Assembly: GCF_003991195.1 (NCBI RefSeq)
Contig: NZ_RCWL01000009.1
Span: forward strand, 1 to 64,000
Origin: Gynurincola endophyticus
GTDB lineage: Bacteria; Bacteroidota; Bacteroidia; Chitinophagales; Chitinophagaceae
Direction: 5' to 3'
DNA: 64,000 nucleotides
The stretch's first letter is position 1. Each line of letters opens with the position of its first letter. The notes below the pieces were generated by a model. It saw nothing but the letters and a program-made list of their open reading frames with translations, made no database searches and was not told where the DNA came from. Both the position numbers and the translations under genes were made by a program. This document shows positions 15,579 through 56,776 of this stretch, in pieces.

Positions 15579-16364
15579 ATGATGAAAAAAATGATTTTTA
15601 TTAGCCTCGTTTTATTGAGCGGCCTCCAACTGTCTGCTCAAATGGGTTGGAATGGAGTAGTAGCCCATCGAGGAGGTATTTATAACGATCCGGCTATTCC
15701 TGAAAATTCTATTGCGGCGCTGAAAAAATCAATCGAACTGGGATGTTATGCTGCAGAAATTGATGTACACCTCACCAAAGACCTCGTGCCTGTCGTTTTT
15801 CATGACCATGAATACAATGGTATGCACGTTGAAAAAGTTACTTATAATGATTTAAAAGGAATCAGGCTCTCCAACGGAGAGCCGATTCCTACTTTAGACC
15901 AGTATCTTAAAGTCGTAATGAACGATCCGAAAATCAGGTTATGGATAGATCTCAAACGCTCACAACTCGAACCTGAACGAAACGTTCTGCTGGCTCAATA
16001 TGTAGCACAGGTAATACAACAAAACTTTGCAGAAAAAAGAGCTGAAATCATTGCACCAATGTTTGACGCTATGATAAGAATAAAACAAATTGCTCCGCAG
16101 GTAAAGTTATATTACATTGGAGTAGATAAAACACCCGGAACGCTTAGGAATCTGGGGTTCGATGGTGTTAATCTCAGCTATAAACGGTTCGATAAAGAAT
16201 ACAGTATCACAGAAACAATCGCTGCCGGATTATACGTCGGAGCATATGTGATAGATGACCCCGTTGAAATGGAAAAACAAATTAAAAATGGGGTTCATTT
16301 TATTACTACCAATAAACCTGAAGTGCTGATTCAGGTGATTGAAAAATTAAAGAAAAAACTTTAA
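15579..16364 (+). CDS. Glycerophosphodiester phosphodiesterase, secreted (GDPD 2)
   Basis: The 261-residue protein has a signal peptide (MMKKMIFISLVLLSGLQLSAQ, cut after AQ likely) and no lipobox, so it is probably periplasmic. The GDPD signature is complete: VVAHRGGIYNDPAIPENS, AAEIDVHLTKD, VVFHDHEYNGM, LWIDLK. It differs enough from the other two GDPDs of the locus to suggest another substrate or cleavage position. It lies four bases after the BACON/FGE gene and 22 bases before the binding-protein gene. It could therefore release the sugar or polyol that the ABC importer then takes up. Two start codons (15579, 15582) are equally possible. Confidence 0.9.
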   Translation: MMKKMIFISLVLLSGLQLSAQMGWNGVVAHRGGIYNDPAIPENSIAALKKSIELGCYAAEIDVHLTKDLVPVVFHDHEYNGMHVEKVTYNDLKGIRLSNGEPIPTLDQYLKVVMNDPKIRLWIDLKRSQLEPERNVLLAQYVAQVIQQNFAEKRAEIIAPMFDAMIRIKQIAPQVKLYYIGVDKTPGTLRNLGFDGVNLSYKRFDKEYSITETIAAGLYVGAYVIDDPVEMEKQIKNGVHFITTNKPEVLIQVIEKLKKKL

Positions 16365-16386
16365 CTCTCTTATAAATTGAAGCTGA

Positions 16387-17403: not shown

Positions 17404-17413
17404 ACCACCTGCT

Positions 17414-18907: not shown

Positions 18908-18910
18908 AAA

Positions 18911-19840: not shown

Positions 19841-19843
19841 TTT

Positions 19844-21322: not shown

Positions 21323-21326
21323 GATT

Positions 21327-22199
21327 ATGAAAAATATTGAAATTGTATGTTTTGGAGAAGTACTTTGGGATAATTTAAAAGAAGGCAGACGACTCGGCGG
21401 TGCTCCGCTAAACGTTTGTTATCATCTGAATAAAAGAGGTATTCCCAGTGCCATCGTTTCTCAGGTCGGAAATGATAGTAATGGAAGCGATATATTAAAT
21501 GAAATTGACCAACTGGAAATCGACCGCACTTTTTGTACGGTATCTGAAAGTAAACCGACTTCCACAGTTGAAGTACATATCATCGACGAAAAAGTGACCT
21601 ATGAAATAGTAGAAGATGTGGCCTGGGATCATATTCCTTACACTGCCGAACTCGAAAATGCAGTGGGCGGCGCAGAAGTCTTATTGTTTGGAAGTCTGGT
21701 TACTAGAAACAGTGTTTCAAGAAATACTTTATTCAGATTACTACCTGCGGCAAAGTATAAAGTATTTGATGTAAATATGCGGCCTCCGTTTTATACAAAA
21801 GATCGGATTGAAGCTTTAATTAAAGTTTCTAACCTGTTAAAAATGAATGAAGAAGAATTGTTTGTTTTGTGCGATTGGTGGCAAATTGAAGTAAAAGAAG
21901 AAGAACGAAAGTTAAATACGATTTTAAATCAATTCGAATCGTTGGAGGCCATTATATTAACCAAAGGTGCTGAAGGAGCCAGCTATTGCAGCAGGGATAT
22001 CTATCTTTCCGCACCCGCACAAAAGGTTCAGATTGCTGATACGGTTGGCAGTGGCGATGCGTTTCTGGCTTCTTTCCTGGCCAGTAAACTTCAGGGAATA
22101 CCCGTTGAAGAGGCACTAAAAAGCGCAATCGTGTTATCAGGCTTTGTTGCTACGCAGGCCGGCGCTTGTCCGCCATACGAACTGGCTGAAATTTATTAA
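21327..22199 (+). CDS. PfkB-family carbohydrate kinase (fructokinase-like)
   Basis: A 290-residue cytoplasmic kinase of the ribokinase/PfkB family. The first signature region (RRLGGAPLNVCYHLNKRG) and the C-terminal anion-hole motif DTVGSGDAFLASFLASKL with the catalytic base Asp244 are intact. GEVLWDNLKEGRRLGGAPLNV is the opening common to bacterial fructokinases. It would phosphorylate the ketose made by the dehydrogenase encoded four bases upstream, for example fructose to fructose phosphate or xylulose to xylulose phosphate. Fructokinase is the best guess; the family also covers adenosine and other sugar kinases. Confidence 0.88.
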   Translation: MKNIEIVCFGEVLWDNLKEGRRLGGAPLNVCYHLNKRGIPSAIVSQVGNDSNGSDILNEIDQLEIDRTFCTVSESKPTSTVEVHIIDEKVTYEIVEDVAWDHIPYTAELENAVGGAEVLLFGSLVTRNSVSRNTLFRLLPAAKYKVFDVNMRPPFYTKDRIEALIKVSNLLKMNEEELFVLCDWWQIEVKEEERKLNTILNQFESLEAIILTKGAEGASYCSRDIYLSAPAQKVQIADTVGSGDAFLASFLASKLQGIPVEEALKSAIVLSGFVATQAGACPPYELAEIY

Positions 22200-38473: not shown

Positions 38474-38899
38474 ATGTATTGGAGTACAGTCTTAGATCAC
38501 TTTGAACGAGAACATTACTTTGTGAATGGTTTAACTATTCCCTTCATTATTGGTTCAAGAACAATTTTAGAGCCTGATGAACCGATACAATCAATTAACG
38601 AACTATTTGCAGACATCTTGAAGTCGGACTGTTATGTTCAGGTTCTAAAATGTGACTGGATCGGTGAATATGTATTTAGATTATCAAACAAAGCAACACA
38701 GGATATATATGGAGGTTTTGATAACATAGTGGTGATTGACGATTCATTTCCTAATGCTACATGCTCTGCAGACGTCATAACAACTCTTGAAAATCGATAT
38801 ACTAAATTCATTGAAGCAGAAAAATACTCTTGGATAGATGGTGATTGGCAAAAATTTTCTAACGAAATTGATCTGCCAAGACTTAACGAAATTAATTAA
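38474..38899 (+). CDS. Hypothetical protein, 141 residues
   Basis: I do not recognise this protein. It is soluble, acidic and rich in aromatic residues (MYWSTVLDHFEREHYFVNG, CDWIGEYVFRLSNKATQDIYGGFDNIVVIDDSFP), with no signal peptide or catalytic motif visible. It starts 22 bases after the XRE frame and ends 31 bases before the DUF5343 gene, so it is probably part of one transcript with the DUF5343-HEPN pair. A small regulatory or antitoxin-like role would fit the context, but nothing in the sequence proves it. Confidence 0.6.
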   Translation: MYWSTVLDHFEREHYFVNGLTIPFIIGSRTILEPDEPIQSINELFADILKSDCYVQVLKCDWIGEYVFRLSNKATQDIYGGFDNIVVIDDSFPNATCSADVITTLENRYTKFIEAEKYSWIDGDWQKFSNEIDLPRLNEIN

Positions 38900-38930
38900 C
38901 CTAACATACAAAACTAAATTTCTACGACAT

Positions 38931-39569
38931 ATGGCTGCTGATATACCTTATATGAATGCTCCCGGCTCAATCGGAAAGATTCTCGATAAAATTAAAGAAG
39001 CCAGTACACCTGAAACCTTTAGCCAAGATTTTTTAAAAACTAAATTGGGCTTTAATGGAGGAAATTATTTGACGTTTATTCCTTGGGCAAAGAAAGCTGG
39101 ACTTGTCAATAGTGATGGTACACCAACAAACCTTTATAAACAATTCAGAAATCCAGCAACATCAGGGAAAAGCCTAGCTATTGCAATAAAACAAGCATAT
39201 AGTGAGTTGTTCTCGCGTAATGAATATGCTAACGAATTAGACAAAAAAGCTTTCAAAGGGCTTGTGATGGAATCCACTGGGGAAGCTCATGATTCTAAGA
39301 AAGTTGAAAATATTGTTTCTACTTTCTTTAATGCCAAAGCCTTAGCAGACTTCAATCCAACTCCAGACAGTAAAGCTGAAGAAAAACCAAAGGAGAATGA
39401 ACCAGAACGAAAATCTCAAGAATTATCGTCTCACTCCTCTTTCCAACCACATAAGCAAAGAAGTATTGGTTTGAACTATACCATAAATCTAGTTTTGCCG
39501 AAAACAGATGATCCTGCAATTTTCAACGCCATATTCAAATCATTAAAAGAAAATTTGCTCAATGATTAA
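38931..39569 (+). CDS. DUF5343 protein, partner of the HEPN protein
   Basis: The 212-residue protein matches my knowledge of the DUF5343 pattern: PYMNAPGSIGKILDKIKEASTPETFSQDFLKTKLGFNGG, FIPWAKKAGLVNSDGTPTNLYKQFRNPATSGKSLA, LFSRNEYANELDKKAFKGLVMESTG. The first 140 residues look like winged-helix DNA- or RNA-binding repeats. A charged linker (residues 145-180) leads to a small C-terminal beta segment (IGLNYTINLVLP...IFNAIFKSLKENL). I start it at ATG 38931; an in-frame ATG at 38838 lies inside the upstream gene. It overlaps the HEPN gene by eight bases, so the two are translationally coupled and likely act as a pair. Confidence 0.8.
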   Translation: MAADIPYMNAPGSIGKILDKIKEASTPETFSQDFLKTKLGFNGGNYLTFIPWAKKAGLVNSDGTPTNLYKQFRNPATSGKSLAIAIKQAYSELFSRNEYANELDKKAFKGLVMESTGEAHDSKKVENIVSTFFNAKALADFNPTPDSKAEEKPKENEPERKSQELSSHSSFQPHKQRSIGLNYTINLVLPKTDDPAIFNAIFKSLKENLLND

Positions 39570-40149
39570 TACCGATATTGAATCTAAGATAAGGCTCTTC
39601 ACGTTGGCTAATTCGCTTACAGAAAATTGTTTGGATAGAGTTGAATCTGAATTAAGAGTTGACTTAGGTCGAAAAGAAGTAGTCGAAATTAAAAGAAAAG
39701 ATTATTATCTGCAATTCAATGCCGATTTCAGAAAAGAGGCAAAAGAAATGGCAGAACATTACGAGATATTCTATTGCTTAGAAAGATCTATCAGAGCGTT
39801 AGTGGTTCAATTAATGCAAGAAGAATATGGCGACAATTGGTGGGACTTAAAAGTTCCCCCCGCAATTAAAACAAATGTTGACAATAACATGAACAGAGAA
39901 GCAGAATCTGGGTTTACGCAACGTTCTGAAAAGAAAATTGACTACACAACTTTTGGAGAATTGGGGCAAATAGTTTCGGGAAATTGGACAGCATTTGATG
40001 ACTTATTCAAAAACTCAAGAGCCTTTCAAAAAATTATGACAAGTCTAAATCTACTTAGAGGTCCTATCGCTCATTGCTGTCCTTTGGCTGAAGACGAGAT
40101 TGTAAGATTAGAGATAACAGTGAAAGACTGGTTTAGGTTAATGGAATAA
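39562..40149 (+). CDS. Swt1-like HEPN protein, putative RNase toxin
   Basis: The 195-residue protein is all-helical. In its last third it has LRGPIAHCCPL, which gives the HEPN active-site motif Arg-x4-His (Arg166, His171) followed by helices as in Swt1-type HEPN domains (DEIVRLEITVKDWFRLME). HEPN domains are RNases widespread in toxin-antitoxin and abortive-infection systems. The gene overlaps the DUF5343 gene by eight bases. The pair is a plausible toxin-antitoxin or Abi module with HEPN as effector and DUF5343 as sensor or neutraliser; that division of work is inference. Confidence 0.8.
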   Translation: MINTDIESKIRLFTLANSLTENCLDRVESELRVDLGRKEVVEIKRKDYYLQFNADFRKEAKEMAEHYEIFYCLERSIRALVVQLMQEEYGDNWWDLKVPPAIKTNVDNNMNREAESGFTQRSEKKIDYTTFGELGQIVSGNWTAFDDLFKNSRAFQKIMTSLNLLRGPIAHCCPLAEDEIVRLEITVKDWFRLME

Positions 40150-41767: not shown

Positions 41768-42097
41768 ATGACTGATATTGAAGAACTTATAAGCGATTTG
41801 ATACATTTTCGAAACGAGCGGGATTGGGAACAGTTTCACAATCCTAAAGACTTGGCGCTGGCCATTAATATAGAGGCTGGCGAACTGCTGGAGCTTTATC
41901 TCTGGAAGAACGCAGAAGAGGCTAACGTAGAAAAAGTAAAGGAAGAGCTGGCCGATATTTTGTCTTTTGCGTTGCTGCTGGCTGATAAATATAAGCTAGA
42001 TGTAAAACAGATCGTTCAGGAAAAAATCCGTAGAAATGGAGAAAAATACCCGGTAAGCAAAGCCAAAGGAACAGCTAAGAAGTATGATGAACTATGA
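41768..42097 (+). CDS. MazG-like nucleotide pyrophosphohydrolase
   Basis: A 109-residue all-alpha NTP pyrophosphohydrolase. The metal-binding pattern is visible: INIEAGELLELYLW (Glu-x2-Glu) and VKEELADILSFALLLADKY (Glu...Asp), as in MazG and small dCTPase-like enzymes that hydrolyse NTPs or dNTPs to monophosphates. Its stop codon overlaps the start of the large helicase-nuclease gene (ATGA, four bases), so the two form a translationally coupled pair. In a defence setting a MazG enzyme could deplete nucleotides or remove modified ones. The start at 41768 gives the usual length. Confidence 0.9.
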   Translation: MTDIEELISDLIHFRNERDWEQFHNPKDLALAINIEAGELLELYLWKNAEEANVEKVKEELADILSFALLLADKYKLDVKQIVQEKIRRNGEKYPVSKAKGTAKKYDEL

Positions 42098-44301
42098 GTA
42101 CAGTCTTCCCTGAAATATTGATAGATATATCGGAGCCTTACTCTTTTAGCAAGGAGGGGCTTGAGCAGATAAAACAAAACCGTTGGGCCAAAAACCAATG
42201 GCCGCTTGTGTATTTTATAGATAGCAAAAGGAAAAAAAAGAAATGTTACATTGGTGAATCTACCCATGCCATAACGCGCATCACCAGCCACCTTGCCAAT
42301 AAAAAAAAAGCCGTTCTGGACCAGATACTACTGATTGGTAGCGACTGGTTCAATAAATCGGCTACACTTGATATAGAGTCGACTCTCATCCGCTATATGT
42401 CGGCTGAGGGCAGCTATGATCTGATGAATGGCAACTATGGACTAAAAACACATAATTATTACGAACGAAAAATATACCACGAAGTATTTAGCCGGATATG
42501 GCAACAGCTGAAAGAACGGCAGGTAGTACGCAGCTCCCTGACGGATATTGAGAACTCACAGATATTTAAATACTCTCCTTACAAATCGCTGAACGAAGAT
42601 CAATACAGATCATTGCTCGAAATACTGGACGGTCTTACCACTAAACAATCAAACAGGATATTTGTAAAAGGAAGCGCAGGTACTGGTAAAACCATACTGG
42701 CTACTTACCTGATGAAACTGCTGAAATCGGATATAGGTGCTATAGAGAATGAGGAAGAGCTGGATAGCAGCAATGGTACTTTGCGGGAAATACGCTACAT
42801 CAGGCAGTTTCAACAGCAATATCCCAATGCTCGGATTGGGTTGGTGATCGCGATGGATTCACTGCGTGCCACGCTAAAAGATGTATTCCGTAAGATGCCC
42901 GATTTAAACTCAAGTATGGTCATTAGTCCCTCCGATACGTTTAAGGGTTCAAAATACGACCTGCTGATTGTAGACGAAGCACACCGATTACGGCAATACA
43001 AGAATATTAGCTGGAGGGGCCCATTCAAAAAGAAAAATAAAAAACTAGGGCTTGATAATACAGGCACCGAGCTGGATTGGATATTAAGCAACAGCAAGAA
43101 CCAGATATTTTTTTACGACCGTGACCAGGAGGTACGTCCTTCGGATGTAGCTGAAAGCCGTTTTCTCGATCTGCTGAAGAATAAGGCGACGCTAAAGCTA
43201 AAGCTCCATTCGCAAATGCGGGTCATGGGCGGATCTGACTATATTTCCTTTGTAGATGAACTACTACACCTGAAGCTGGAAACAGCAGCACAATTTGAAG
43301 TGGATGAGTATGAGTTGAAAGTGTTCGATTCCATTATTGATATGCGAAATATGATACAGGAAAGAGAACAGGAATATGGCTTATGCCGTATGATCGCAGG
43401 TTACTCCTGGTCTTGGTCTTCCAAGAAAGATAAAAAGGCAATGGATATAGAGATTGAGGGCATTCATTTTCAATGGAATCAGGTAAACCGCGACTGGATC
43501 AATTCGGATACTGCAGTAAACGAGATTGGTTGTATTCACACAACTATGGGTTATGATCTGAATTATGGTGCTGTCATATTCGGACCGGAGATTAGTTATA
43601 ATTCTGCTAAGCAATGCATTGAAGTTGATCCCGATCAGTATCATGACAAATATGGTAAACAGGGAGTTGATGGTAAACAGCTGAAAAAATATATCATCAA
43701 CATTTACAAGAATATGATGTATCGGGGTATTCGGGGTACATTCGTGTATGCCTGTGATGCGGAACTACGTGAATATTTGAAGCAGCATATACCTGTATAT
43801 GGTGTTAAGCCTCCTGCATTGAAAATATTATCTAAAGAAGAGGCTCACGGGAATAATCGTGCCGTTGCCTTTATAGATATTTTGGCAGCAGCGGGCAGCT
43901 TCAGCGATAACCAGCTTCCGGCACAACAGAAATGGATAGAACTACCCAACGATATTAAGGATAGAGATAATCATTTTGTCTGTAAGGTAGTAGGCGAATC
44001 TATGAATAAGAGAATTAAAAATGGGTCTTATTGCTTGTTCCGGCGCGATACCAGCGGAAGCCGTGAAGGAAAAATTGTACTAGTTCAAAGCACAGCGATA
44101 CAGGATGCAGATTTCGGGTCTGGTTACACTGTAAAAGAATATCATAGTACTAAATATATAAGCTCCGAAGAATGGCGCCATGCATCCATTACACTGAAGC
44201 CTTTGTCTGATGACCCTCGCTATCAGGATATTGAGTTGTTTGAAGATGATTTACAGTCTTTAAAAGTAATCGGTATTTTCAAAAACGTAGTGATATTTTA
44301 A
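42094..44301 (+). CDS. GIY-YIG nuclease / DUF2075 helicase / S24 autopeptidase fusion
   Basis: The 735-residue protein joins three modules. Residues 37-100 form a GIY-YIG-type nuclease (VYFID at 39-43, CYIGES at 51-56, Arg62 in the following helix, a later Glu in DIEST). Residues 185-590 are a DUF2075/Schlafen-type helicase-like P-loop ATPase with GSAGTGKT (193-200), LLIVDEAHR (Asp294, Glu295) and IGCIHTTMGYDLNYGAVIFGPE. Residues 595-735 are a LexA-like S24 peptidase with Ser636 in VVGESMNKRI and Lys681 in YTVKEYHS. AAAG at 598-601 places an Ala-Gly bond 35 residues before Ser636, the spacing of UmuD and LexA self-cleavage sites. It is coupled to MazG by a 4-base overlap. The role in defence is inferred. 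Confidence 0.88.
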   Translation: MSTVFPEILIDISEPYSFSKEGLEQIKQNRWAKNQWPLVYFIDSKRKKKKCYIGESTHAITRITSHLANKKKAVLDQILLIGSDWFNKSATLDIESTLIRYMSAEGSYDLMNGNYGLKTHNYYERKIYHEVFSRIWQQLKERQVVRSSLTDIENSQIFKYSPYKSLNEDQYRSLLEILDGLTTKQSNRIFVKGSAGTGKTILATYLMKLLKSDIGAIENEEELDSSNGTLREIRYIRQFQQQYPNARIGLVIAMDSLRATLKDVFRKMPDLNSSMVISPSDTFKGSKYDLLIVDEAHRLRQYKNISWRGPFKKKNKKLGLDNTGTELDWILSNSKNQIFFYDRDQEVRPSDVAESRFLDLLKNKATLKLKLHSQMRVMGGSDYISFVDELLHLKLETAAQFEVDEYELKVFDSIIDMRNMIQEREQEYGLCRMIAGYSWSWSSKKDKKAMDIEIEGIHFQWNQVNRDWINSDTAVNEIGCIHTTMGYDLNYGAVIFGPEISYNSAKQCIEVDPDQYHDKYGKQGVDGKQLKKYIINIYKNMMYRGIRGTFVYACDAELREYLKQHIPVYGVKPPALKILSKEEAHGNNRAVAFIDILAAAGSFSDNQLPAQQKWIELPNDIKDRDNHFVCKVVGESMNKRIKNGSYCLFRRDTSGSREGKIVLVQSTAIQDADFGSGYTVKEYHSTKYISSEEWRHASITLKPLSDDPRYQDIELFEDDLQSLKVIGIFKNVVIF

Positions 44302-46566: not shown

Positions 46567-46986
46567 ATGACTGATGTACACTCAAAATCCGTAAGGAGTT
46601 TTAATATGAGTCAGATCAAGGGAAAAGATACGAAGCCGGAAATGATAGTACGGAAATATCTTTTTTCTCAAGGTTTACGCTTTCGTTTGCATAAAAAGGA
46701 ATTACCGGGCAAACCCGATATTTGCTTACCTAAATATAAAACAGTAATTTTCATTCACGGGTGTTTCTGGCATGGCCATGTGGGGTGCAAATATTATGTT
46801 ATACCCAAAACAAGAACTGATTGGTGGCTGAATAAAATTAATCGGAATATTGAAAATGATATTAAAGCAACTTCAGAGTTAAGGAAAATGAGGTGGAATG
46901 TTATAGAGATTTGGGAATGCCAGCTAAAAAAGGCAAACTTGGAAGAAACATTGGAAAATTTATTAAAAGAAATAAAAAGTTATTGA
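46567..46986 (+). CDS. vsr: Very short patch repair (Vsr) endonuclease
   Basis: The 139-residue nuclease nicks T:G mismatches that arise when methylated cytosine is deaminated at Dcm-type sites. The whole family pattern is visible: VRSFNMSQIKGKDTKPEMIVRKYLFSQGLRFRLHKKELPGKPDI, then VIFIHGCFWHGHVGCKYYVIPKTRTDWWLNKINRN and RWNVIEIWECQL. The catalytic Asp is in KPDI and the zinc-binding and catalytic His/Cys residues are in the HGCFWHGH segment. It lies eight bases before the cytosine methyltransferase gene, the classical pairing, and opens the four-gene cluster that follows. Confidence 0.95.
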   Translation: MTDVHSKSVRSFNMSQIKGKDTKPEMIVRKYLFSQGLRFRLHKKELPGKPDICLPKYKTVIFIHGCFWHGHVGCKYYVIPKTRTDWWLNKINRNIENDIKATSELRKMRWNVIEIWECQLKKANLEETLENLLKEIKSY

Positions 46987-46994
46987 AATTCAAT

Positions 46995-48254
46995 ATGTCC
47001 AGGAAGTTTACTTATATTGATTTGTTTGCTGGCGCCGGAGGATTGTCTGAGGGGTTTGTAAGAGCAGGGTTTGAGCCTGTTGCTCACGTAGAAATGGATA
47101 AAGCAGCCTGTTTCACTTTGAAAACTCGTATTGCTTGTCATTATCTGAAATCTACAAACCAATATGAGCACTATGTGTCTTATCTTCAAGGGATGACTTC
47201 TCGTGAGGAGTTATATAATAAAATTCCCCAGGATCTTCTTAATTCCGTTATAAATCTTCCTATTGGTGGAGAAAATAACAATACTATACATAAGAAAATA
47301 TTAAACCTACTGAAAGGTAGAGCTGTAGATCTGATTATAGGTGGTCCCCCCTGCCAGGCTTATTCATTGGTAGGAAGAGCGAGATCAGCTAGCGGAATGA
47401 AAGGAGATAAAAGAAATTATCTGTATGTTCAATATGCAAGATATCTTGAAACGTATCAACCTAAAATTTTTGTTTTCGAGAATGTCATTGGACTATTATC
47501 TGCGGGTAATGGAAAGTATCTTGAGAATATGAAAAAGCTTTTCGACAAAAAGGGTTATGAAATCAGATTGTTTAATGTTGAGGCTGTCAATTTTGGTGTG
47601 TTGCAAAATAGAAAGAGAATTATAATTATTGGGTGTAAAAAAGGACAGAATATTAAAATACCTGACTTGGGGGATATTCAAAAAATTGCTACATGTACTG
47701 TATCGGATGTTTTGAGAGATTTACCTAGCGTTATTGCAGGTCAGAATACACCTAGAAGTATGCGATATGAAGATAAATCAAATATTTATCTGACAAATAC
47801 TTTCATTAGAAATGGAATTGATATATTAACTCAGCACTCACCGAGACCTCATACTTTGCAGGATAAAGAAATATATAGAATTGCTGTTCAAAAGTGGAAT
47901 ACTAAACGGGAAAGATTAAATTATAATGATTTACCTGAAAGGTTGAAAACCCATAAAAATCGTTCATCATTTTTTGATAGGTTTAAAGTCGTAGCTTCAG
48001 ATGAACCATGTTCGCAAACAGTAGTTGCGCATATAGCAAAGGATGGTCATTATTACATTCACCCGGATATTGAGCAGAACCGTTCGCTTACTGTGAGAGA
48101 AGCTGCACGTCTTCAATCTTTTCCTGATGATTATTTTTTCGAAGGAGTAAAAGACGGCTTAGCAAGAACACCTGCATTTAAACAAATAGGCAATGCTGTA
48201 CCTCCTTTGATGGCGTATGAGATCGCAAAAAAAATTCGGAAATTGCTTTCGTAA
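46995..48254 (+). CDS. dcm: DNA (cytosine-5-)-methyltransferase
   Basis: The 419-residue C5 methylase has FAGAGGLSEGFVRAGF (motif I, AdoMet binding), GGPPCQAYSLVGRAR (motif IV, Cys120 the nucleophile), FENVIGLLS (motif VI), NFGVLQNRKRIIIIG (motif VIII) and LTVREAARLQSFPDDYFF to QIGNAVPPLMAYEIAKKI (motifs IX and X). The target-recognition region lies between residues 235 and 340. The recognition site cannot be read. I start it at ATG 46995 (MSRKFTYIDLFAG), since an in-frame start at 46893 lies inside vsr. No ordinary restriction enzyme gene is adjacent, so the nuclease partner must be sought in the two genes that follow, or the methylase acts alone. Confidence 0.95.
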   Translation: MSRKFTYIDLFAGAGGLSEGFVRAGFEPVAHVEMDKAACFTLKTRIACHYLKSTNQYEHYVSYLQGMTSREELYNKIPQDLLNSVINLPIGGENNNTIHKKILNLLKGRAVDLIIGGPPCQAYSLVGRARSASGMKGDKRNYLYVQYARYLETYQPKIFVFENVIGLLSAGNGKYLENMKKLFDKKGYEIRLFNVEAVNFGVLQNRKRIIIIGCKKGQNIKIPDLGDIQKIATCTVSDVLRDLPSVIAGQNTPRSMRYEDKSNIYLTNTFIRNGIDILTQHSPRPHTLQDKEIYRIAVQKWNTKRERLNYNDLPERLKTHKNRSSFFDRFKVVASDEPCSQTVVAHIAKDGHYYIHPDIEQNRSLTVREAARLQSFPDDYFFEGVKDGLARTPAFKQIGNAVPPLMAYEIAKKIRKLLS

Positions 48255-48354
48255 TACTAGTCACTATAAGGTAAAACTTTAGGTTAATATAAAACGAACT
48301 TTTAGTTTTTAAATTTTCGTATGATATAAATCGAAAGATTTGAAGAAATTACTT

Positions 48355-51300
48355 ATGGAAAAATATAGCTGTTTTAAGTGTCCCGCCGCCAATGATTATT
48401 CGCTAAAAGCATTGACTGACGCATGTCCTGTTTGTAGTTTGCCCTACGGATTTCCACTGGAATATTATCCTTTGGAAATAGGAGGAATTGAAATTATAAA
48501 ACCCTTGGCCAGAGGATTTTATGGAGCAACTTTTATAGGGGAACAATCTTTTTTTGGCAGTAAAGTCAAAAAAGTAATCAAGATAATTCCCGTTGAATTA
48601 TACAAAATTCAGAAAAAAGACTTTAGGGAAGAATGCAAAAGCCATTTTGATCTTTCACAAAATTCAGATCATATTGTAAAACTTGATCCTAATATATACC
48701 ATGATAATATTCCTATAAAGTTTAGCAATCGGGAAATCATAAATTGTCATGTTGTAGGCCTTGAATATCTTGAGGGTGTGACTTTAAAGGAATACATTCA
48801 GCAGGACACACATGTTCCACCGAGAACAATAGCTCAGATTGCCATAGATCTTATTACACTTTTACAGGAATTAAGAATTAATGAAACATATCATAACGAC
48901 TTACATCCTGGTAACATAATTATAGAATCTCTTTCTGACTCAAGGAAAAGATTTAATGAGATTGATGAGAACATAAAGGTTGTTGCTATTGATTTGGGTT
49001 CGCTAAACCAAAAAACCAAAAGTAATGACGATAGTGATCGTACAGGCGACTTGCACTGGATAGGGCAATGTTTAAATTTATTAAGCAGAAAAATAACGGA
49101 TAAGCTTGATAAATATACTCCAAAAGACTGGAGGTTGGCATTTCTGCTGGAAGAAAAGGCTGATTTTTTGAAACCAGAAATACTTCATCAAAGGCCCATT
49201 ACTTATAAAGATCTTATAAATCAGATAAGGGATACATACCATCAACACACTAATCCCTGGCAACAAGAGTTAGTATTAAAAAGTTTTGATGACGCTGTAA
49301 ATGCTCAATCTCTCAGCCCCTGGCACGTTTCATCTTTATTTGTTGATAAAGACAATGCATGGGCGAAAAAGATAAGTGTTAAAGGGCCTCAGGTAATTAC
49401 GGGCATGCGGGGATGTGGAAAAACTATGTTATTGAGAGCGTTAGAATTTCACGCCAGACTAATGCCGCAAAATGGTGATGAAAAAGATTCTCCCAATAAC
49501 GTAATCGAACGTCTTATGAGCTCGTCAGAAAGGTATATCGGCTTATATATTTCGTGTGTAAAACTACTTGATTTCAACGCTTTAAAAGGGAGTGAGTATA
49601 AAGAGATATTTGAGCCTTACTCCAAACTTCTGATTGGTTTTGCTATACAGGCAATACACTCTATTAGACATCTGAAAGATTTAAAACCTGACGTAGTAAG
49701 AAATGACTATCATCTGTCTATTGCCAGTACATTGGCATATTTAATTAATCAGGGAGAAGAACTTACACAAATCACTAGTGACTATGATTTGGAAAACAAA
49801 CTCAAAAAATACTTAAACTCACTAAGCGACGGTCAGGATATTCATAAAATTAATATTCACCCTAAGATTGCATTTCCACAGTTAGCGGAGTCAATAAAAA
49901 AGTCATCAGAAGTCTTCGCCCAATCTCATATATACTTTCTTTTGGATGACGTATCCACAAGGTATCTTAATGATAACAATATTATTAAGCTAATCTCTGA
50001 GTTACTGTTCCAAGATGAAACATGCGCTTTTAAATTTACAACTGAGGCACAGACTCTTGAAATGGTTATTATGGCACCAGGAAGCACTTCTCAAGCTAAA
50101 ATTGGACGAGATTATTCAATTTTTGACTTGGGAGAAGAAGTAAACCGGATCATTCATGAAGACCATCATGAAGGCCAAAAGTTCGTCGAGGATATCCTGC
50201 TGAAACGCGCAAAATACTTTCCTTTACATCCTCAGAATCTTACCCCTTCCCAAATATTAGGAGATGAAACATTGATATCTATAGCTGAGAATATTGTAAA
50301 GGAAGAAAAAGCGTCGCAGAAAAAAGAGCTATATCATGGGATTTCAGCACTAACTGCAGTATGTGTCGGGGATTTGGGAGATGTAATAACATTGTATGAA
50401 TTGATTCTTAAAAGATCATCATCTCCCGCTTTTAGAGGATATCCTATTGATCCCAAAATACAGAACTCATGCTATCTTCAATTATGTAATTCAAGGTTAT
50501 ATGATCTCAACCGGAGAGACACCCGGTATCTTGATTTTGTAGAATCTTTTGCTGATGCCTCGCATCACCTGCTTATACAATCTGCTATAAGACGATCGAA
50601 GAACAAAAGCGACCGGCTCAGGCAATACACATCAATATTTATTAATATTACGCATGGAGATAAAGATGAACAATATAAGCAGGTAAGGAAACTCATTGAT
50701 GCCGGAATTTTCAATTTACAGGGAGGACCAGAAGCGTCAAGAACAAATCGCCAAGGGCTGAAACCACAGCAACAATTTAAACTTGTTTTCCGGAAGTTAT
50801 ATGGAGTAAGTAAACATATAGGACTTTCCAGCTCAGACAGATTTGAGTTATCAGGTAAACCACTTGAAGAGTGGCTTAACAATCCTAAAAACGGAAAGAA
50901 TATTCTTATTAAAAATCTGAATCCAATTCCTGAAGACCAGCTTTCAAAGCTTCTTGAACAAACTGAATTAAAAGAAGCAGTTTCATCCGGTAAACATGAA
51001 TCTCGTAAGCAGCAATTACTTCCTTTCCATGAAGAAGAACAATCTCACATAGTGGATGAAAATATTGATGACTTCAATTTCATCCACGAAAAATTACCTT
51101 CTATTGCCAAAATTCAAAGAAATGACTTCAATAATCTTCAGATAGACATTGCAATTATAGGATTAGGGTTTGAAGATGCAACATTAAACTCTGCAAAAGA
51201 AATATGTAAACTTAATCCTAAGAAAGTCATATTCATTAGGTTTGAAGAAGTTGGTCATTCAGAAGAGATACTAAAAGAATTCGATGCATTAGAAAGCCAG

Positions 51301-52056
51301 CAGAAAACTATTTTGCCTCCGGAAGATTTCCTGAGCGTTATTTCAGAACTAGAAAACAAAATTGTACTATGTGATGTAACCGGACTTCCCAAGGGTGTAA
51401 TGTTTAATTCTATACGTACAGCATGTCTTAAAAATAAATCCTTTTTTATTTCACTTACTGCTCCAGAATTTGAATATCCTCTTGATGAAGATGTCGATAA
51501 GTTTCTAAAAGCTAGTTCTGACAGTGATTCATCTCTGTTACTTCAGCAAATGTCCTCCATTCAGAAAGGAGAAACGGGGCCTTATTCTCTCATAAATCTA
51601 TTGCCAAACTATACAAATATTTCTGAGCCCAGGGTGTTGCTTGCTTTTGCTTCTGCTAAGCATGAAAGACTTTACACACTTCTTGACGAGCGTGATTATG
51701 AACAAATAAGTGTTTTGGTAACGAATGGAGAATCACCTAGAGAGAAATTAGCACGGACCTCTGCAGAATTTTCCTTACGGAAGTTTAATTCAGCAGTTAT
51801 CCATTATCTTGATGAGAATAATTTATCTGACATTTTGGAGCAAATGTCAAAAGACTATTATACTTATTTTATAAAAAATAACTTTCCCTTTGAACTGGGT
51901 CTTACAGGGAATAAAGTTGAAACTGTTGCTGCAGCAATATTTTCTTCTGTTTTTAAAGTCTCCCAATGCTGGTATGTGAAACCAGAAAAGTGGGATACCG
52001 AGAAATTTTCTAAAGGTTCCAGCGATTTTAGTATTATCCAAATCAGAATTAAATAA
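48355..52056 (+). CDS. Zinc-ribbon / protein-kinase / P-loop ATPase giant protein, predicted defence sensor
   Basis: The protein has 1233 residues from ATG 48355 (a TTG at 48340 would add five). Modules in order: a zinc ribbon (CxxC at 6-9 and 24-27); a Ser/Thr-kinase-like domain (loop ARGFYGATFIGE, Lys76 in VIK, HNDLHPGNI at 180-188, Asp213 in DLG), so all key catalytic residues are kept; a P-loop ATPase with GMRGCGKT (350-357) and YFLLDDVS (Asp531-Asp532); a long helical part (570-880); a Rossmann-like region from about 925 (DIAIIGLGFEDATLNSAKEI, KIVLCDVTGLPKG); and an end with LGLTGNKVETVAAAIF, which reminds me of CARF-like nucleotide sensors. I do not know a named family for the whole. 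It sits 100 bases after dcm and 51 before the GHKL gene. Confidence 0.75.
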   Translation: MEKYSCFKCPAANDYSLKALTDACPVCSLPYGFPLEYYPLEIGGIEIIKPLARGFYGATFIGEQSFFGSKVKKVIKIIPVELYKIQKKDFREECKSHFDLSQNSDHIVKLDPNIYHDNIPIKFSNREIINCHVVGLEYLEGVTLKEYIQQDTHVPPRTIAQIAIDLITLLQELRINETYHNDLHPGNIIIESLSDSRKRFNEIDENIKVVAIDLGSLNQKTKSNDDSDRTGDLHWIGQCLNLLSRKITDKLDKYTPKDWRLAFLLEEKADFLKPEILHQRPITYKDLINQIRDTYHQHTNPWQQELVLKSFDDAVNAQSLSPWHVSSLFVDKDNAWAKKISVKGPQVITGMRGCGKTMLLRALEFHARLMPQNGDEKDSPNNVIERLMSSSERYIGLYISCVKLLDFNALKGSEYKEIFEPYSKLLIGFAIQAIHSIRHLKDLKPDVVRNDYHLSIASTLAYLINQGEELTQITSDYDLENKLKKYLNSLSDGQDIHKINIHPKIAFPQLAESIKKSSEVFAQSHIYFLLDDVSTRYLNDNNIIKLISELLFQDETCAFKFTTEAQTLEMVIMAPGSTSQAKIGRDYSIFDLGEEVNRIIHEDHHEGQKFVEDILLKRAKYFPLHPQNLTPSQILGDETLISIAENIVKEEKASQKKELYHGISALTAVCVGDLGDVITLYELILKRSSSPAFRGYPIDPKIQNSCYLQLCNSRLYDLNRRDTRYLDFVESFADASHHLLIQSAIRRSKNKSDRLRQYTSIFINITHGDKDEQYKQVRKLIDAGIFNLQGGPEASRTNRQGLKPQQQFKLVFRKLYGVSKHIGLSSSDRFELSGKPLEEWLNNPKNGKNILIKNLNPIPEDQLSKLLEQTELKEAVSSGKHESRKQQLLPFHEEEQSHIVDENIDDFNFIHEKLPSIAKIQRNDFNNLQIDIAIIGLGFEDATLNSAKEICKLNPKKVIFIRFEEVGHSEEILKEFDALESQQKTILPPEDFLSVISELENKIVLCDVTGLPKGVMFNSIRTACLKNKSFFISLTAPEFEYPLDEDVDKFLKASSDSDSSLLLQQMSSIQKGETGPYSLINLLPNYTNISEPRVLLAFASAKHERLYTLLDERDYEQISVLVTNGESPREKLARTSAEFSLRKFNSAVIHYLDENNLSDILEQMSKDYYTYFIKNNFPFELGLTGNKVETVAAAIFSSVFKVSQCWYVKPEKWDTEKFSKGSSDFSIIQIRIK

Positions 52057-52107
52057 TAGGTCCGTTACCCATCACCAAATTAATCACTGGATTTTGAAAC
52101 TATTTTT

Positions 52108-53970
52108 ATGAACAATACCTTAACTCTTAAATTCGACCCTAATACAATAGAACACTTAGGTATATCACTATATTCAAAGCTACCTAGTGTCCTATCCGAG
52201 CTCGTTTCAAATTCCTGGGATGCCGATGCAGATAAAATAAGCATACATTTCTATGACCGGGATGGTAAGAAAGAGATTGTGTATAAGGATGATGGTGTGG
52301 GCATGAGCTTTGACGAATTAAACGATAAGTTTCTATTAATTGGTCGTAACAGAAGAAAAGATCCCCAAGAGAGAATAACACAGAAAAGTCGACCTGTTAT
52401 AGGTAAAAAAGGGTTAGGAAAGCTATCAGTATTTGGAATATGCGATGTTATTGAAATCGAATCAGTTCAAAATGGGAAAAGAAATTACTTCCAGATGAAA
52501 CTGATGGATATCAAATCAAGCAATGGTTCATACAATCCAACCTTATTATGCCCTAAGGATTCTCAGACTGATAAAGCAAATGGAACTACATTACACTTAA
52601 AATCAATAAGGAGAAAATCAGGGTTTGACTTGACAGATCTGGCAATAAGTTTGTCAAAGAAGTTCTTAATTTTTGATATCTTAAAACTTGAAATGAGCTT
52701 AAATGATGGCGAATTAACTATAGTAACTAACGAGTTAAAGTTTGCCTCTTTTGAGGAGCAATTCAGATGGCCTTTTCCTAATGAATTAGATGCAGAGTAT
52801 GAGAACCATCTTAACGTAAAAGGCTTTGTAATTACAACTTTGACACCAATTAAAGACACTGAGATGTCTGGTATTTATTTGGTATCGCGGGGGAAAATTG
52901 TTAATACAGCAAGCTTTTACGGATTGAGAGATAATGATCAGTTCCATTCATATGTAACTGGATATTTAGAAGTCGACTTTATTGATGATTTTGATGAAGA
53001 TGTAATATCTACTGACAGGCATTCTCTGAATTGGGAGAATGATAAGACCAAAGAATTGCAAGTATACCTTCAAAATGTAATACGCAAAATTGGAAATGAG
53101 TGGAAGAAAAAAAGAGCAGAAGTAAAAAAGGTTGATATAAAAACCGAAACAAATTTAGATATAGACGAATGGCAGATGAAACTCCCTACATATGAGCGGG
53201 ATTTAAGTGAAAGAATCATTCGTCCTATTCTTACCAATCCAAGATTAGAAACGGATAAATCCAGTGAGATAATCAAAAATGTTATTGATAAATTTGATAA
53301 TAGTACATTCAAAGAATATGCTGATAAAATATCTGGCATATCGAGTGAAGATCAATTACCGGAATTGTTACATTTAATTGAAGATTGGAAAGCCATAGAG
53401 TCTAAACAGTTTAGAGATATTTCCGTCTCAAGAGTTGAGGTTATAAAACAGTTTGAAGAATACCTTGATAATGACACGAAAGAAGTTCCTACATTACATA
53501 ATTTCCTGAAAAAGTTTTCTTGGTTATTAGATCCCAGAATTTTAGAGTTTAAAGATGAGGTTAGATATTCGCAGTTACTAAAAGAAACTTATCCTGATGA
53601 GCTTCTTGAAGAAAAAGATAGAAGAATAGATTTTCTCTGTAGTAATGCCTTGGGCGAAATACTATATGTTATAGAGATAAAACGGAGCAGTTACGAGGTG
53701 GACCTAAAGGCGATAGACCAAGCTTTTGCCTACAAATCATTTTTGGTGGAGAAATACGCATCACAAACTGGGTTTTCAAAAGTTGTTTGCTTCGTGGTAG
53801 GAGGCTCTAAATCTGGAGAAACTGTATTTAAAAATAGAGAAATTAACTATTATAATGCAGGTGATGTATTTGTGAAAACATACGTTGAACTATTAGAACA
53901 ATCTAAGGAATATCATAAAGAATTTATTGATGCTTATGATTCTCATACTTTAAGTGGCAAGAAAAAGTAG
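52108..53970 (+). CDS. GHKL ATPase (MutL/MORC-like) with C-terminal PD-(D/E)XK nuclease
   Basis: The 620-residue protein has an N-terminal Hsp90/MutL-type ATPase: Glu31 and Asn35 in ELVSNSWDADA, DDGVGM (61-66) and GKKGLGKLS (99-107). After a transducer-like middle and helical linker (350-480), the C-terminal part is a restriction-enzyme fold with RRIDFLCSNALGEILYVIEIKRSS (Asp508, Glu523, Lys525: Asp...Glu-x-Lys) and a following helix with AIDQAFAYKSFLVEKYA, resembling Shedu-type (DUF4263) nucleases. MutL/MORC-like ATPases linked to cytosine methylases and Vsr are known from comparative genomics of restriction systems. It is thus the best candidate for the cleaving subunit of this cluster. Activity is inferred. 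Confidence 0.85.
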   Translation: MNNTLTLKFDPNTIEHLGISLYSKLPSVLSELVSNSWDADADKISIHFYDRDGKKEIVYKDDGVGMSFDELNDKFLLIGRNRRKDPQERITQKSRPVIGKKGLGKLSVFGICDVIEIESVQNGKRNYFQMKLMDIKSSNGSYNPTLLCPKDSQTDKANGTTLHLKSIRRKSGFDLTDLAISLSKKFLIFDILKLEMSLNDGELTIVTNELKFASFEEQFRWPFPNELDAEYENHLNVKGFVITTLTPIKDTEMSGIYLVSRGKIVNTASFYGLRDNDQFHSYVTGYLEVDFIDDFDEDVISTDRHSLNWENDKTKELQVYLQNVIRKIGNEWKKKRAEVKKVDIKTETNLDIDEWQMKLPTYERDLSERIIRPILTNPRLETDKSSEIIKNVIDKFDNSTFKEYADKISGISSEDQLPELLHLIEDWKAIESKQFRDISVSRVEVIKQFEEYLDNDTKEVPTLHNFLKKFSWLLDPRILEFKDEVRYSQLLKETYPDELLEEKDRRIDFLCSNALGEILYVIEIKRSSYEVDLKAIDQAFAYKSFLVEKYASQTGFSKVVCFVVGGSKSGETVFKNREINYYNAGDVFVKTYVELLEQSKEYHKEFIDAYDSHTLSGKKK

Positions 53971-54080
53971 TTGTATCTGAGGAAAAAGTGGCTTCAACAT
54001 AAAATCTATTGGATTTATTTTTAACTTGGGGATAAAGAGACGAATCATATCTTTTCAAATAGAAATAATGTTTGAGAATA

Positions 54081-56093
54081 ATGGAAAAAAATTTATTATA
54101 CATACAAATTAATGAAAATACTCTAAATAAAGGTATTATTAAAGAAATTAAAAAATATTCAAGTGAAAATCCAAGGGATCAAATATACGTTATCAATGCT
54201 CCTTTAGGGGATAAAAAATATTCCTATTCATATCAAGAAAGCACAATTGTTATTTTATCTCCTAATCATAAATTATTATTTGTTGATTTAGAGGGAGATG
54301 ACGAAAGATTTAATGAGTTTTGTGATGATTTTTTGGAAGACCTAAGTTCAATATCTGATAAATATGATTATAAGAGGCATATTGGTAGACCCAGAGCATG
54401 GAAAGAAAATAATACTATTCAAATTTATAATTATGAATATGAATCTATTGAGCTCTTATTTGAGAATAATCGATTAAATTCTCCAGATCTAAAAAGAATT
54501 AGTGAATTAATAATATCTCTTTTAATTGGCAGTATAAATGATATCGCTAGAGTAGGTGCAGTCGTCCCTGAGACTTTGTTGGAAAAAGTCAAAAAGAATA
54601 TAATTCTTTTTGATGGTGAGCAAACTCGGTTTATTTACAAAGAATTTAATAAAAAGTCTGTTTCTATTCAAGGATTATCTGGAACAGGTAAGACTGAGTT
54701 GCTTTTGCATAAACTTAAAGAGATTTATACTTTAGATGATAAAAGTAAAATATTTTTCACCTGTCATAACATAACACTTTCAAACAATTTAAGAGAACGC
54801 GTTCCTCATTTTTTTAACTTCATGAGAGTAGAAAAACAAATCGAATGGAATAAAAGATTGTGGGTTTCCCATGCGTGGGGATCTAAAAACCAACCAGATT
54901 CAGGACTTTATAGTTATTTATGTAATTTTTATAATGTTCCTTTTCTTAGATATAATAATAGTATTCAGAATAATTACGAAACGATATTTACTCAGATATT
55001 AGAAGTGGTAAACTCAATTAAATCAACAGATTTTAAATTTGCATTTGATTATATTTTGATTGATGAAAGACAGGATTTTCCGAAGATTTTTTTTGAACTT
55101 TGTGAAAAAGTTGCAAGAAAGAAAGTGTATATAGCAGGAGATATATTTCAGGACATTTTTGAAAACACCGACGAAACTGAATTAGAAGTTGATATTGTTT
55201 TAAATAGATGTTACCGGACAGATCCAAGGACATTGATGTTTGCGCATGGAGTAGGACTGGGATTATTTGAAAAAAGAAAACTTAATTGGTTTTCGGATAA
55301 TTATTGGAACGCAATTGGATATGAGGTTGAGAGAAGACGTGATAGATTAATACGATTACATAGAGAACCAATCAGGAGATTTGAAAACTTGAGTACAGAA
55401 GATTTTGAAAGTGTTATTATACGTGGGTCGAATTATATAGATGATGTTATTAATATTATATCTGATCTTATAAAAGTTCATAAAGATTTAAAACCTGATG
55501 ATATTGCAATTATTATATTGGAGGAAAATAGGAAAAATATCTATGATTATATTGATAAATTAATTATTACTGTTGAGAAGAAATTAGGTTGGAGTGCGAA
55601 TAGAGTCTATGAGAATAAGAGTAAAGTCCCTGGGACGCTTTTCATATCGAACCATAATAATGTAAAGGGACTTGAGTTTCCATTTGTAATTTGTTTAACG
55701 GCTGCGATTAAAGACACATACAAATATCGAAATATTCTTTATACGATGCTAACAAGGTCTTTTATACAATCGTATTTGTTAGTTGATGATAAAAAAGGAG
55801 TTGATCAAAATAGAGAAGGGCTTGATATAATAAATAAACATTGCTACATTCAAACTATTGAACCTTCTTCGATGGAGAAAAAAGAAATTGTAAACAAATT
55901 AAAAAAGTTTATTCAAAATAGTGAAAATATTTCTTATGATGATTTTATTAAAAAAATATTTGATGAATTAAATGTGCCTAAATCTTATAGAACAAAGCTT
56001 ATTAATGCTTTATTAAATACTGATTTTGATAAATTTGACAAGGATAAAACTGTAAAGTTTATCAAGGCAAACATTGAATTTTATAGCTCATGA
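54081..56093 (+). CDS. UvrD/Rep-like SF1 helicase of a two-gene defence-like module
   Basis: The 670-residue protein has about 170 N-terminal residues of unknown type, then SF1A helicase motifs: QGLSGTGKTELL (198-205, motif I), DYILIDERQDF (Asp328, Glu329; motif II), AGDIFQDIF (motif III), NRCYRTDPRTLMFA (motif IV), SNHNNVKGLEFPFVICL (motif V) and YTMLTRSFIQSYLL (motif VI). I start it at ATG 54081 rather than at an in-frame TTG at 54072. It is much more AT-rich than the dcm cluster, and 110 bases separate them, so it was perhaps acquired separately. Its stop overlaps the start of the next gene (ATGA), which marks the two as a unit. Confidence 0.88.
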   Translation: MEKNLLYIQINENTLNKGIIKEIKKYSSENPRDQIYVINAPLGDKKYSYSYQESTIVILSPNHKLLFVDLEGDDERFNEFCDDFLEDLSSISDKYDYKRHIGRPRAWKENNTIQIYNYEYESIELLFENNRLNSPDLKRISELIISLLIGSINDIARVGAVVPETLLEKVKKNIILFDGEQTRFIYKEFNKKSVSIQGLSGTGKTELLLHKLKEIYTLDDKSKIFFTCHNITLSNNLRERVPHFFNFMRVEKQIEWNKRLWVSHAWGSKNQPDSGLYSYLCNFYNVPFLRYNNSIQNNYETIFTQILEVVNSIKSTDFKFAFDYILIDERQDFPKIFFELCEKVARKKVYIAGDIFQDIFENTDETELEVDIVLNRCYRTDPRTLMFAHGVGLGLFEKRKLNWFSDNYWNAIGYEVERRRDRLIRLHREPIRRFENLSTEDFESVIIRGSNYIDDVINIISDLIKVHKDLKPDDIAIIILEENRKNIYDYIDKLIITVEKKLGWSANRVYENKSKVPGTLFISNHNNVKGLEFPFVICLTAAIKDTYKYRNILYTMLTRSFIQSYLLVDDKKGVDQNREGLDIINKHCYIQTIEPSSMEKKEIVNKLKKFIQNSENISYDDFIKKIFDELNVPKSYRTKLINALLNTDFDKFDKDKTVKFIKANIEFYSS

Positions 56094-56776
56094 AGACTTT
56101 ATTTCAAATAGAGATAAATTTAGCTTCGAAAAAAGTTTTTTTTCCAGAAGAACGTATTAAAAATAAATATAAGATTTTGGAAATACTTTTGGAAGCATGC
56201 AGATATATTATTTACAGTGAGAAAGAAAAAAAAGTGCGAGGAAGTTGTAAAATGATATTGAACACTGATAAAATGAAAAGAATATTCTTTATAAGTGAAT
56301 ATAAGATGTATTCAATCGTTTTTCCATTTAATATTCATTATGATGGTAGAGAGACGATTATCAGTTATAAAAATATTATCGATATTGATTCACGAGTAAT
56401 TACCACTTTATTAAGTATTATAAAATCTCCAGTTGCTTATAGTGAAAATTGCCTAGATTTTATCGATCCGGTTTTAGAATCAGAGGAAGATGGTAAAATA
56501 AATTACTGGCCAATATTAAGAGATTTAATTTTTATAGAAGAAGGTTACTTGAGATATGATAGGGATCTAAAAGGATATCAAGAGGCACTTGAAAATGAGC
56601 AGCAACATAGACATCCTTTGAATCATATTGATATTTTTTATACTAATCAAGCAACATTTAAACTTGGACTTGAACAGGAATGTTTGGAGGTTGATTTTAT
56701 TGATACGTTAGATTCTAATACAAACTGCAAATATTTAAAATCGGTCAGTTCGGCTAAGAAATCCCCCAAAAAATGA
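56090..56776 (+). CDS. Unknown partner protein of the SF1 helicase
   Basis: I do not recognise the family. The 228-residue protein has a mixed alpha/beta look, no signal peptide or membrane segment, an Asp/Glu/Tyr-rich middle (CLDFIDPVLESEEDGKINYWPILRDLIFIEEGYLRYDRD) and a C-terminal block QQHRHPLNHIDIFYTNQATFKLGLEQ whose His-Pro-x3-Ile-Asp pattern looks like a conserved functional site. It starts in the stop codon of the helicase gene (ATGA overlap), is equally AT-rich, and is the last gene of the island before acnB. A role as effector or substrate-recognition partner of the helicase is inference from coupling. Confidence 0.65.
   Translation: MKTLFQIEINLASKKVFFPEERIKNKYKILEILLEACRYIIYSEKEKKVRGSCKMILNTDKMKRIFFISEYKMYSIVFPFNIHYDGRETIISYKNIIDIDSRVITTLLSIIKSPVAYSENCLDFIDPVLESEEDGKINYWPILRDLIFIEEGYLRYDRDLKGYQEALENEQQHRHPLNHIDIFYTNQATFKLGLEQECLEVDFIDTLDSNTNCKYLKSVSSAKKSPKK

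Follow-up and report, generated by a model that had tools for sequence, protein, structure and literature searches.

A restriction-modification (R-M) locus of Gynurincola endophyticus was found to encode, between a C5-cytosine DNA methyltransferase and a GHKL-ATPase nuclease, a 1233-amino-acid (aa) protein that joins a zinc ribbon, a Ser/Thr-type kinase, an ORC/CDC6-like AAA domain and a CARF6 region. The locus lies in the window, by which we mean the whole stretch of 64,000 nucleotides that was analysed (positions 1 to 64,000 of contig NZ_RCWL01000009.1, assembly GCF_003991195.1). A DNA methyltransferase gene stands at most one open reading frame (ORF) from this large protein or its relatives in all seven loci that hold one (the window, L011, L012, L013/L045, L014, L047 and L058). 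These loci document a recurrent, modular association in which the kinase-AAA-CARF protein is anchored to a methylase, and the methyltransferase link of the CARF6 family may already be described in print. With belief and doubt in about equal measure, we read the locus as an HgiDII/BbrUII-type Vsr, Dcm and GHKL R-M system that carries a methyltransferase-anchored CARF6-kinase-AAA module, with the kinase as a signal-triggered second-line effector.

A kinase-AAA-CARF protein in a Vsr-Dcm-GHKL locus

The locus consists of four contiguous plus-strand ORFs at 46567-53970, as an earlier reading of the sequence (the original prediction) had stated, with stop-to-start spacings of 8, 100 and 51 bases. 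The first, vsr (46567-46986), encodes a very-short-patch mismatch endonuclease (TIGR00632, 141.8 bits against a cut-off of 97.85; Pfam Vsr, E 7e-35), and the second, dcm (46995-48254), the methyltransferase (TIGR00675, 182.2 bits against a cut-off of 100.65; PADLOC PDLC02649, 561 bits), such that both proteins pass curated cut-offs. The dcm ORF is open from a GTG at 46893, and the ATG at 46995 was taken because it matches the start of relatives. The large gene (48355-52056) has its best start at the ATG at 48355, from which residues are numbered, and is followed by the GHKL-nuclease gene (52108-53970). Chitinophaga chungangae (L011) has the same gene order with one extra gene (62-77% identity), and the window dcm is the sole PF00145 methylase of its genome at E ≤ 1e-10 and adjoins the large gene; the four-gene arrangement is therefore more than chance. 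The locus is a methylase-linked restriction locus, and most of its components belong to known kinds.

The 1233-aa protein matched the PADLOC model CARF6--CARF_STK_AAA at 1851.9 bits, over profile positions 1-1185 of 1187. Makarova et al. 2014 (PMC4012209) describe this small family as combining a zinc ribbon, kinase, AAA domain with a P-loop arginine, CARF domain and winged helix-turn-helix (wHTH); all but the last of these were recognised in the window protein. The kinase-ATPase is thus not new, as the original prediction had supposed it to be, being covered by both that paper and a PADLOC model. The domains, their conserved catalytic residues and the gene association are direct observations. 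Across four aligned proteins (window included), the zinc-ribbon cysteines C6, C9, C24 and C27, the kinase residues D182, N187 and D213, and the P-loop Lys356 are invariant, which bears out the zinc ribbon, kinase residues and P-loop predicted earlier; the distant L013 protein is without the zinc cysteines. The residues singled out in that prediction (Asp182 and Lys356 here, Asp508 in the GHKL protein) were correctly placed and are invariant in aligned relatives. The kinase domain was delimited at 48487-49104 from Pfam Pkinase, the alignment and motifs, and the AAA domain at 49294-50538 from PF24389 (E 1.4e-24, 87.2 bits, cut-off 27), the alignment and motifs, with an arginine-containing P-loop (GMRGCGKT) and a Walker B motif (LLDD).

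What had been described as a Rossmann-like end proved to be the CARF6 region, the C-terminal 329 aa (51067-52053), on the basis of PADLOC, an AlphaFold2 (AF2) model and VIA-align. The model, built from three sequences, is confident only at about residues 20-130, in the first half of the region. VIA-align, which is a second look at Foldseek's own matches, placed CARF proteins at all of ranks 1-35 (Z 10.0 to 7.1; 17 with Z above 8), among them Cam1, Csm6, Can1, Can2, Csa3, Cad1 and ring nucleases, with the first other fold at Z 7.0. Foldseek alone gave a mixed picture, Cam1 and Csm6 being interspersed with methyltransferases, Dot1L and E1 enzymes, and a PDB sequence search with the region returned nothing useful. 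As modelled, the C terminus is predicted to adopt a CARF fold. No Pfam wHTH was matched in this region, where the second half of the model has a predicted local distance difference test (pLDDT) score below 50. The second half of the region in the L014 relative gave a weak CARF_Card1 match (E 0.0023); an arrangement of two tandem CARF domains was dropped, the half-against-half comparison giving a probability of 0.2%.

Methyltransferase adjacency across seven loci

Searches with the large protein or parts of it turned up all six loci outside the window, and none of them was reached through a methylase. In L011 (77% identity), vsr, dcm, a phosphorylase gene, the kinase protein and the GHKL gene follow one another, each overlapping the next. 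All four window genes thus co-occur elsewhere, together with the phosphorylase gene, as the original prediction had anticipated; the kinase-ATPase and GHKL genes are not always found apart from dcm and vsr, so their association with these genes stands. In L012, from a Prolixibacteraceae metagenome-assembled genome (72% identity), the order is vsr, three genes, dcm, phosphorylase, kinase protein, MzaB, a DUF2971 gene, and MzaC, D and E. The vsr relatives at L011 and L012 share 62-64% identity with that of the window. On a Loktanella plasmid (L014, 34% identity), the kinase protein is followed by one ORF, a C5 methylase and NaeI (Pfam 4e-55), with a metallophosphoesterase gene upstream of the kinase protein. 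In L013/L045, a distant relative (107.8 bits) from a genome of the phylum Bacteroidota, an N6/N4-type methylase overlaps the kinase protein, and both flanks apparently hold housekeeping genes.

The large protein is fused in some loci and divided into two or three genes in others. On a Bradyrhizobium plasmid (L047), the order is a Mrr-type nuclease, an ORF, an N6/N4 methylase, kinase, ORC/CDC6-like AAA, CARF6-like protein and thyX, where kinase, AAA and CARF6-like protein are three genes in the order of the fused protein, each overlapping the next. In L058, an N6/N4 methylase (47.2 bits against a cut-off of 26.7) precedes a single kinase and AAA gene, with the CARF6-like gene next. The restriction partner over the seven loci was HgiDII-like in two, and MZA, NaeI and Mrr in one each, while inspection of the ORF lists by eye, without a scan of the flanking ORFs, revealed no recognisable restriction enzyme in L013 or L058. 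Between the window and L012, dcm (67% identity) and the kinase protein (72%) are kept and the nuclease module is wholly different, which indicates that the kinase protein follows the methylase and not the nuclease.

The number of methylases available in each genome was also counted. PF00145 at E ≤ 1e-10 picks out a single methylase in the L012 genome and two in the L011 genome; in both genomes, one adjoins the large gene. PF01555 at E ≤ 1e-8 matched once in the window genome, away from the locus, four times in the L012 genome (G444) and once in the L011 genome (G443); genome G311 has one match, distinct from the L058 methylase, which PF01555 did not pick up there.

A pyrimidine-nucleoside phosphorylase or ThyX gene occurs at three loci (phosphorylase at L011 and L012, thyX at L047). 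The gene between dcm and the kinase gene in L011 and L012 is a relative of pyrimidine-nucleoside phosphorylase (3h5q, E 7e-24; TIGR02644 up to 109 bits, below the cut-off of 409). Neither the window genome nor the Loktanella plasmid has a phosphorylase match, such that the gene is not essential to the set, and the L013 genome has a distant match (44.6 bits) away from the locus. No close phosphorylase relative was found in 390 genomes at E ≤ 1e-60, a count that shows little. In L047, thyX (9103-10026) comes immediately after the split kinase-AAA-CARF genes.

The large protein is rare in the samples searched, which overlap and give thin counts. With the CARF_STK_AAA profile, matches at E ≤ 1e-30 came from 2 of 395 phylum genomes, the window's own among them, and at 1e-20 there was one match among 395 genomes of the class (the window's own) and one among 293 genomes of the family of the L011 genome (the L011 genome itself). 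At E ≤ 1e-3, 13 of 59 genomes matched, including the window's; the other 12 align over the kinase part only and were excluded from the count. No relative of the large protein was found in viral contigs or phage records, nor of its AAA part in viral contigs. Plasmid searches yielded L014 and L047, further plasmid searches gave no new locus, and a Nonomuraea plasmid record with 12% query coverage was left unused.

The GHKL-nuclease gene and its kinase-free relatives

The 620-aa product of the fourth gene is a GHKL ATPase with a PD-(D/E)XK-type nuclease end, as judged from NF050001, PADLOC and an AF2 model. It matched NF050001 (BbrUII/HgiDII) over residues 6-612 at 329.5 bits, which misses the equivalog cut-off of 550, and we therefore class it as a relative rather than a member of the BbrUII/HgiDII enzymes. 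It also matched the PADLOC type II restriction enzyme model REase_II PDLC03419 (E 1.1e-44). The locus had been thought to lack an ordinary restriction enzyme, a view that this gene does not support. In the AF2 model (mean pLDDT 77), MORC3 and MutL ATPase modules were matched with Z up to 18.7, in a fold search that barely tested the nuclease end. For that end (53425-53967; R506-x-D508 ... E523-x-K525), Asp508 and Glu523 are invariant in eight aligned GHKL proteins and the E-x-K is retained in seven of the eight (window included in both counts), and there is a weak Pfam match to HSDR_N_2 (E 0.0025). The D...E-x-K nuclease end proposed earlier is upheld by these residues, and its description as Shedu-like is unsupported by sequence: the three Pfam families (E ≤ 0.1) and three PADLOC models (E ≤ 0.01) that matched the protein include no Shedu. 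As judged from its family, the protein very probably cuts unmethylated DNA, in keeping with the original prediction.

We examined 26 further loci with a GHKL homologue, 21 on viral contigs and five among 40 plasmid-collection records, and none encoded the kinase protein (0/26). A C5-methylase match adjoins the GHKL homologue in 25 of them, a proportion that overstates the number of independent cases because the matches show many of the viral loci to be near copies of one another (L017-L022 with L026; L023-L025; L033-L034). The lone locus without a methylase match (L031) ends at the contig end, and in L030 the methylase match starts about 1 kb past a partial GHKL match. In the annotated plasmid records, four of the five examined, the methylase is next to the GHKL gene in all four. 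Two of the 26 loci have vsr; in L040 (5475-8048), dcm, GHKL and vsr matches are adjacent and the kinase gene is absent, with the GHKL match covering query residues 5-389 only. NF050001 was the top family for the six kinase-free GHKL proteins scanned, one of which exceeds the cut-off. Since 25 of the 26 loci hold a C5-methylase gene, Dcm and GHKL, with or without Vsr, look self-sufficient, and this set looks like a known kind of R-M system to which the kinase would be dispensable. GHKL ATPases beside C5 methylases and Vsr are already in print (PMC2292703 and PMC8011034).

Sister loci with other predicted effectors

PF24389 matched in 7 of 385 genomes of the phylum, namely the window genome, that of L013 and five new ones, of which one holds L058. 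In three loci from this wider set (L055, L056 and L057), an AAA gene is followed by a CARF6-like gene. CARF6 models scored 180 bits in L056 and 207 bits in L057, and the third gene of L055 was weakly CARF6-like (E 9e-5 with Z set to 1000) and without a Pfam family. In a profile comparison, the three CARF6-like proteins matched the CARF regions of the seven loci with a probability of 98.1% (E 1.4e-13), and five unrelated window and L055 proteins gave no score.

The kinase's place ahead of the AAA gene is taken by a calcineurin phosphoesterase in L056 and L057 and by a PRTase-CE gene in L055. We take both to be effectors predicted to attack nucleotides. Loci with PF24390, PF24408 and PF24389 (PRTase-CE, calcineurin, ORC-CDC6-like) were reportedly described by Nicastro et al. 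in 2023. A methylase lies one gene further out in L055 and L056, and L055 has an additional C5 methylase three ORFs behind the AAA gene. L059, from another genome with PF24389, does not fit, no methylase or CARF-like neighbour being recognised there by comparison. The calcineurin phosphoesterase, ORC/CDC6-like AAA and CARF6-like genes run in series at L056 6974-11786 and L057 7692-11706, and the methylase immediately upstream of them in L056 is of the D12 type. On the minus strand of L057 (2525-4682), a D12-type methylase and a DUF6996/DUF6997/DUF7226 gene are possibly a separate R-M pair.

Proposed mechanism and alternatives

In the scheme that we favour, with the kinase as a second-line effector, Dcm would mark host DNA and the GHKL nuclease would cut unmarked DNA, and the ORC/CDC6-like AAA domain would tether the large protein either to DNA or within a complex that includes the methyltransferase. 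The CARF6 region would sense a nucleotide-type infection signal, perhaps a breakdown product of DNA or RNA, and signal binding would activate the kinase, which would act on cellular or phage proteins once restriction alone fails. We infer the ligand, the DNA binding, the kinase target and the order of events in this scheme from the gene content. If true, a CARF sensor would be tied to R-M and not to CRISPR, where two usual makers of second messengers were not found, and the locus would offer a clear test of linking self-DNA marking to a second, signal-triggered defence layer. With split and fused forms available in nature, and with loci where a phosphoesterase or phosphoribosyltransferase stands in for the kinase, the role of each part can be tested singly.

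Several points weigh against this scheme. The sample holds only seven loci; the L013 genome (G132) has seven matches to the N6/N4-methylase family PF01555, one of them beside the large gene, which makes that adjacency less telling; and L057 is without an adjacent methylase, its D12-type methylase lying some 3 kb away on the opposite strand, beside its own neighbour gene. The Pfam Pkinase match (2e-6, 27.8 bits) is under the gathering score of 31.7, the second half of the CARF region is modelled poorly (pLDDT below 50), and a CARF family name is no proof of nucleotide binding. A known source of cyclic oligonucleotides is also missing, since the Cas10 palm domain was found in 0 of 5 genomes or records (L014 as plasmid only, L047 and L058 genomes not searched; controls 6/14) and the SMODS nucleotidyltransferase in 0 of 4 genomes or records (L047 and L058 genomes and other cyclases not searched; controls 4/14). 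Lastly, direct control of restriction would also fit the window and L011, where dcm and the GHKL gene lie on either side of the large gene.

Such control was the original proposal, in which the kinase-ATPase would detect infection and, by phosphorylation, license cutting by the GHKL nuclease. In the window, dcm and the GHKL gene do flank the kinase gene directly, and in L011 they flank the kinase and phosphorylase genes, with kinase and GHKL genes overlapping by 4 bases; yet in 25 of the 26 kinase-free loci a GHKL homologue adjoins dcm, and the kinase protein pairs with unrelated nucleases (NaeI, MZA, Mrr) or none recognised, which weakens the proposal and leaves it unlikely in our estimation. 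The kinase is likelier to be a second-layer effector than a GHKL switch given the predicted effectors that hold its place in the sister loci, the joined methylase-linked AAA and CARF parts and the loci without a recognised restriction enzyme. The adjacency to methyltransferases in seven of seven loci would also suit an AAA-kinase-CARF protein that regulates the methyltransferase or serves as its scaffold, steering modification or coupling modification state to restriction, in the manner of BrxC and the PglW kinase of BREX, as would the presence of the PF24389 ORC-CDC6-like domain, BrxC being an ORC/Cdc6 scaffold according to PMC12839542. C5 methylases nonetheless accompany GHKL nucleases without the large protein, and no BREX model was among the matches listed for the window proteins tested, and we regard such regulation as improbable. 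That the large gene is an independent member of a defence island, its place in the R-M operon being fortuitous, seems very unlikely: the island does have other defence-like genes (the STM2767/STM2766 and DUF5343/HEPN pairs), but L011 keeps the order with gene overlaps, and the PF00145 methylases beside the large gene are one of one in the window genome, one of two in G443 and one of one in G444.

A broader form of the second-line effector reading, which we put forward tentatively and with more doubt than belief, would have a fixed core of methyltransferase, ORC/CDC6-like AAA and CARF6 with a swappable effector (kinase, calcineurin phosphoesterase or phosphoribosyltransferase), grafted onto restriction systems of unrelated types that are complete in other respects. 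Its nucleotide trigger would be independent of Cas10 and SMODS, and the phosphorylase and ThyX would make, remove or exploit the signal. If true, the window carries the kinase form of a modular class on an HgiDII-like system, and the kinase would be cell-directed.

Neighbouring genes

Directly downstream of the locus, at 54072-56776, an STM2767 helicase gene (NF053713, 863 bits, cut-off 550) and an overlapping STM2766 gene (232 bits, cut-off 70) form a separate named pair. This pair was left out of the system since L011 and L012, judged by eye from their ORF lists, have other genes at that position. Upstream, at 38838-40149, overlapping DUF5343 and Swt1-like HEPN genes correspond to the PADLOC candidate PDC-M34A/B, and at 41768-44301 a MazG-like gene overlaps one whose 735-aa product begins with a weak GIY-YIG match, continues with a Schlafen-group-3 helicase and ends in an S24 peptidase-like part, which strikes us as an unusual fusion. 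In L012, a KaiC-like ATPase gene (4987-7551; PF06745 in two stretches) lies between vsr and dcm, and MzaB, C, D and E with the DUF2971 gene (13692-22133; PADLOC candidate PDC-S31) come immediately after the dcm-phosphorylase-kinase block.

Comparison with known systems

Several named systems were considered and set aside. For MZA, which also has a GHKL protein in an anti-phage system and which follows the dcm-phosphorylase-kinase block in L012, the window gave a weak MzaB match (21.5 bits) and no MzaC-E among ten scanned proteins. The MADS kinase model MAD6 reached 15.4 bits against a cut-off of 460. For BREX and DISARM, dcm had a DrmMII model as its top match (561 bits, among the best 25 of 64 matches), and no BREX or other DISARM model was among the matches listed for the other nine scanned window proteins.

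The closest likeness of the large protein is to CARF6 CARF_STK_AAA (PDLC01925; PMC4012209), with which it shares a whole-length match, zinc ribbon, kinase, P-loop arginine and C-terminal CARF. It differs in its link to a Vsr-Dcm-GHKL operon and in that no wHTH was identified; the accessible text of PMC4012209 does not mention methyltransferase neighbours of the family. With the BbrUII/HgiDII R-M systems, of which M.HgiDII is the 5-methylcytosine methylase of GTCGAC (PMC5867850), the locus shares a GHKL-nuclease restriction gene and a C5 methylase gene, dcm lying upstream with one gene between, whereas the window GHKL protein is below the equivalog cut-off and accompanied by an extra kinase-AAA-CARF gene. 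The GHKL/paraMORC R-M neighbourhoods (Iyer 2008, PMC2292703; Bellieny-Rabelo 2021, PMC8011034) likewise combine GHKL ATPases, C5 methylases and Vsr, but the accessible portions of these papers mention no Ser/Thr kinase-AAA-CARF partner. The PF24390/PF24408/PF24389 loci have in common with the window the ORC/CDC6-like AAA and its CARF6-like partner, and two of the three also carry a methylase one gene farther along; they differ in that the window has a kinase in place of the phosphoesterase or PRTase.

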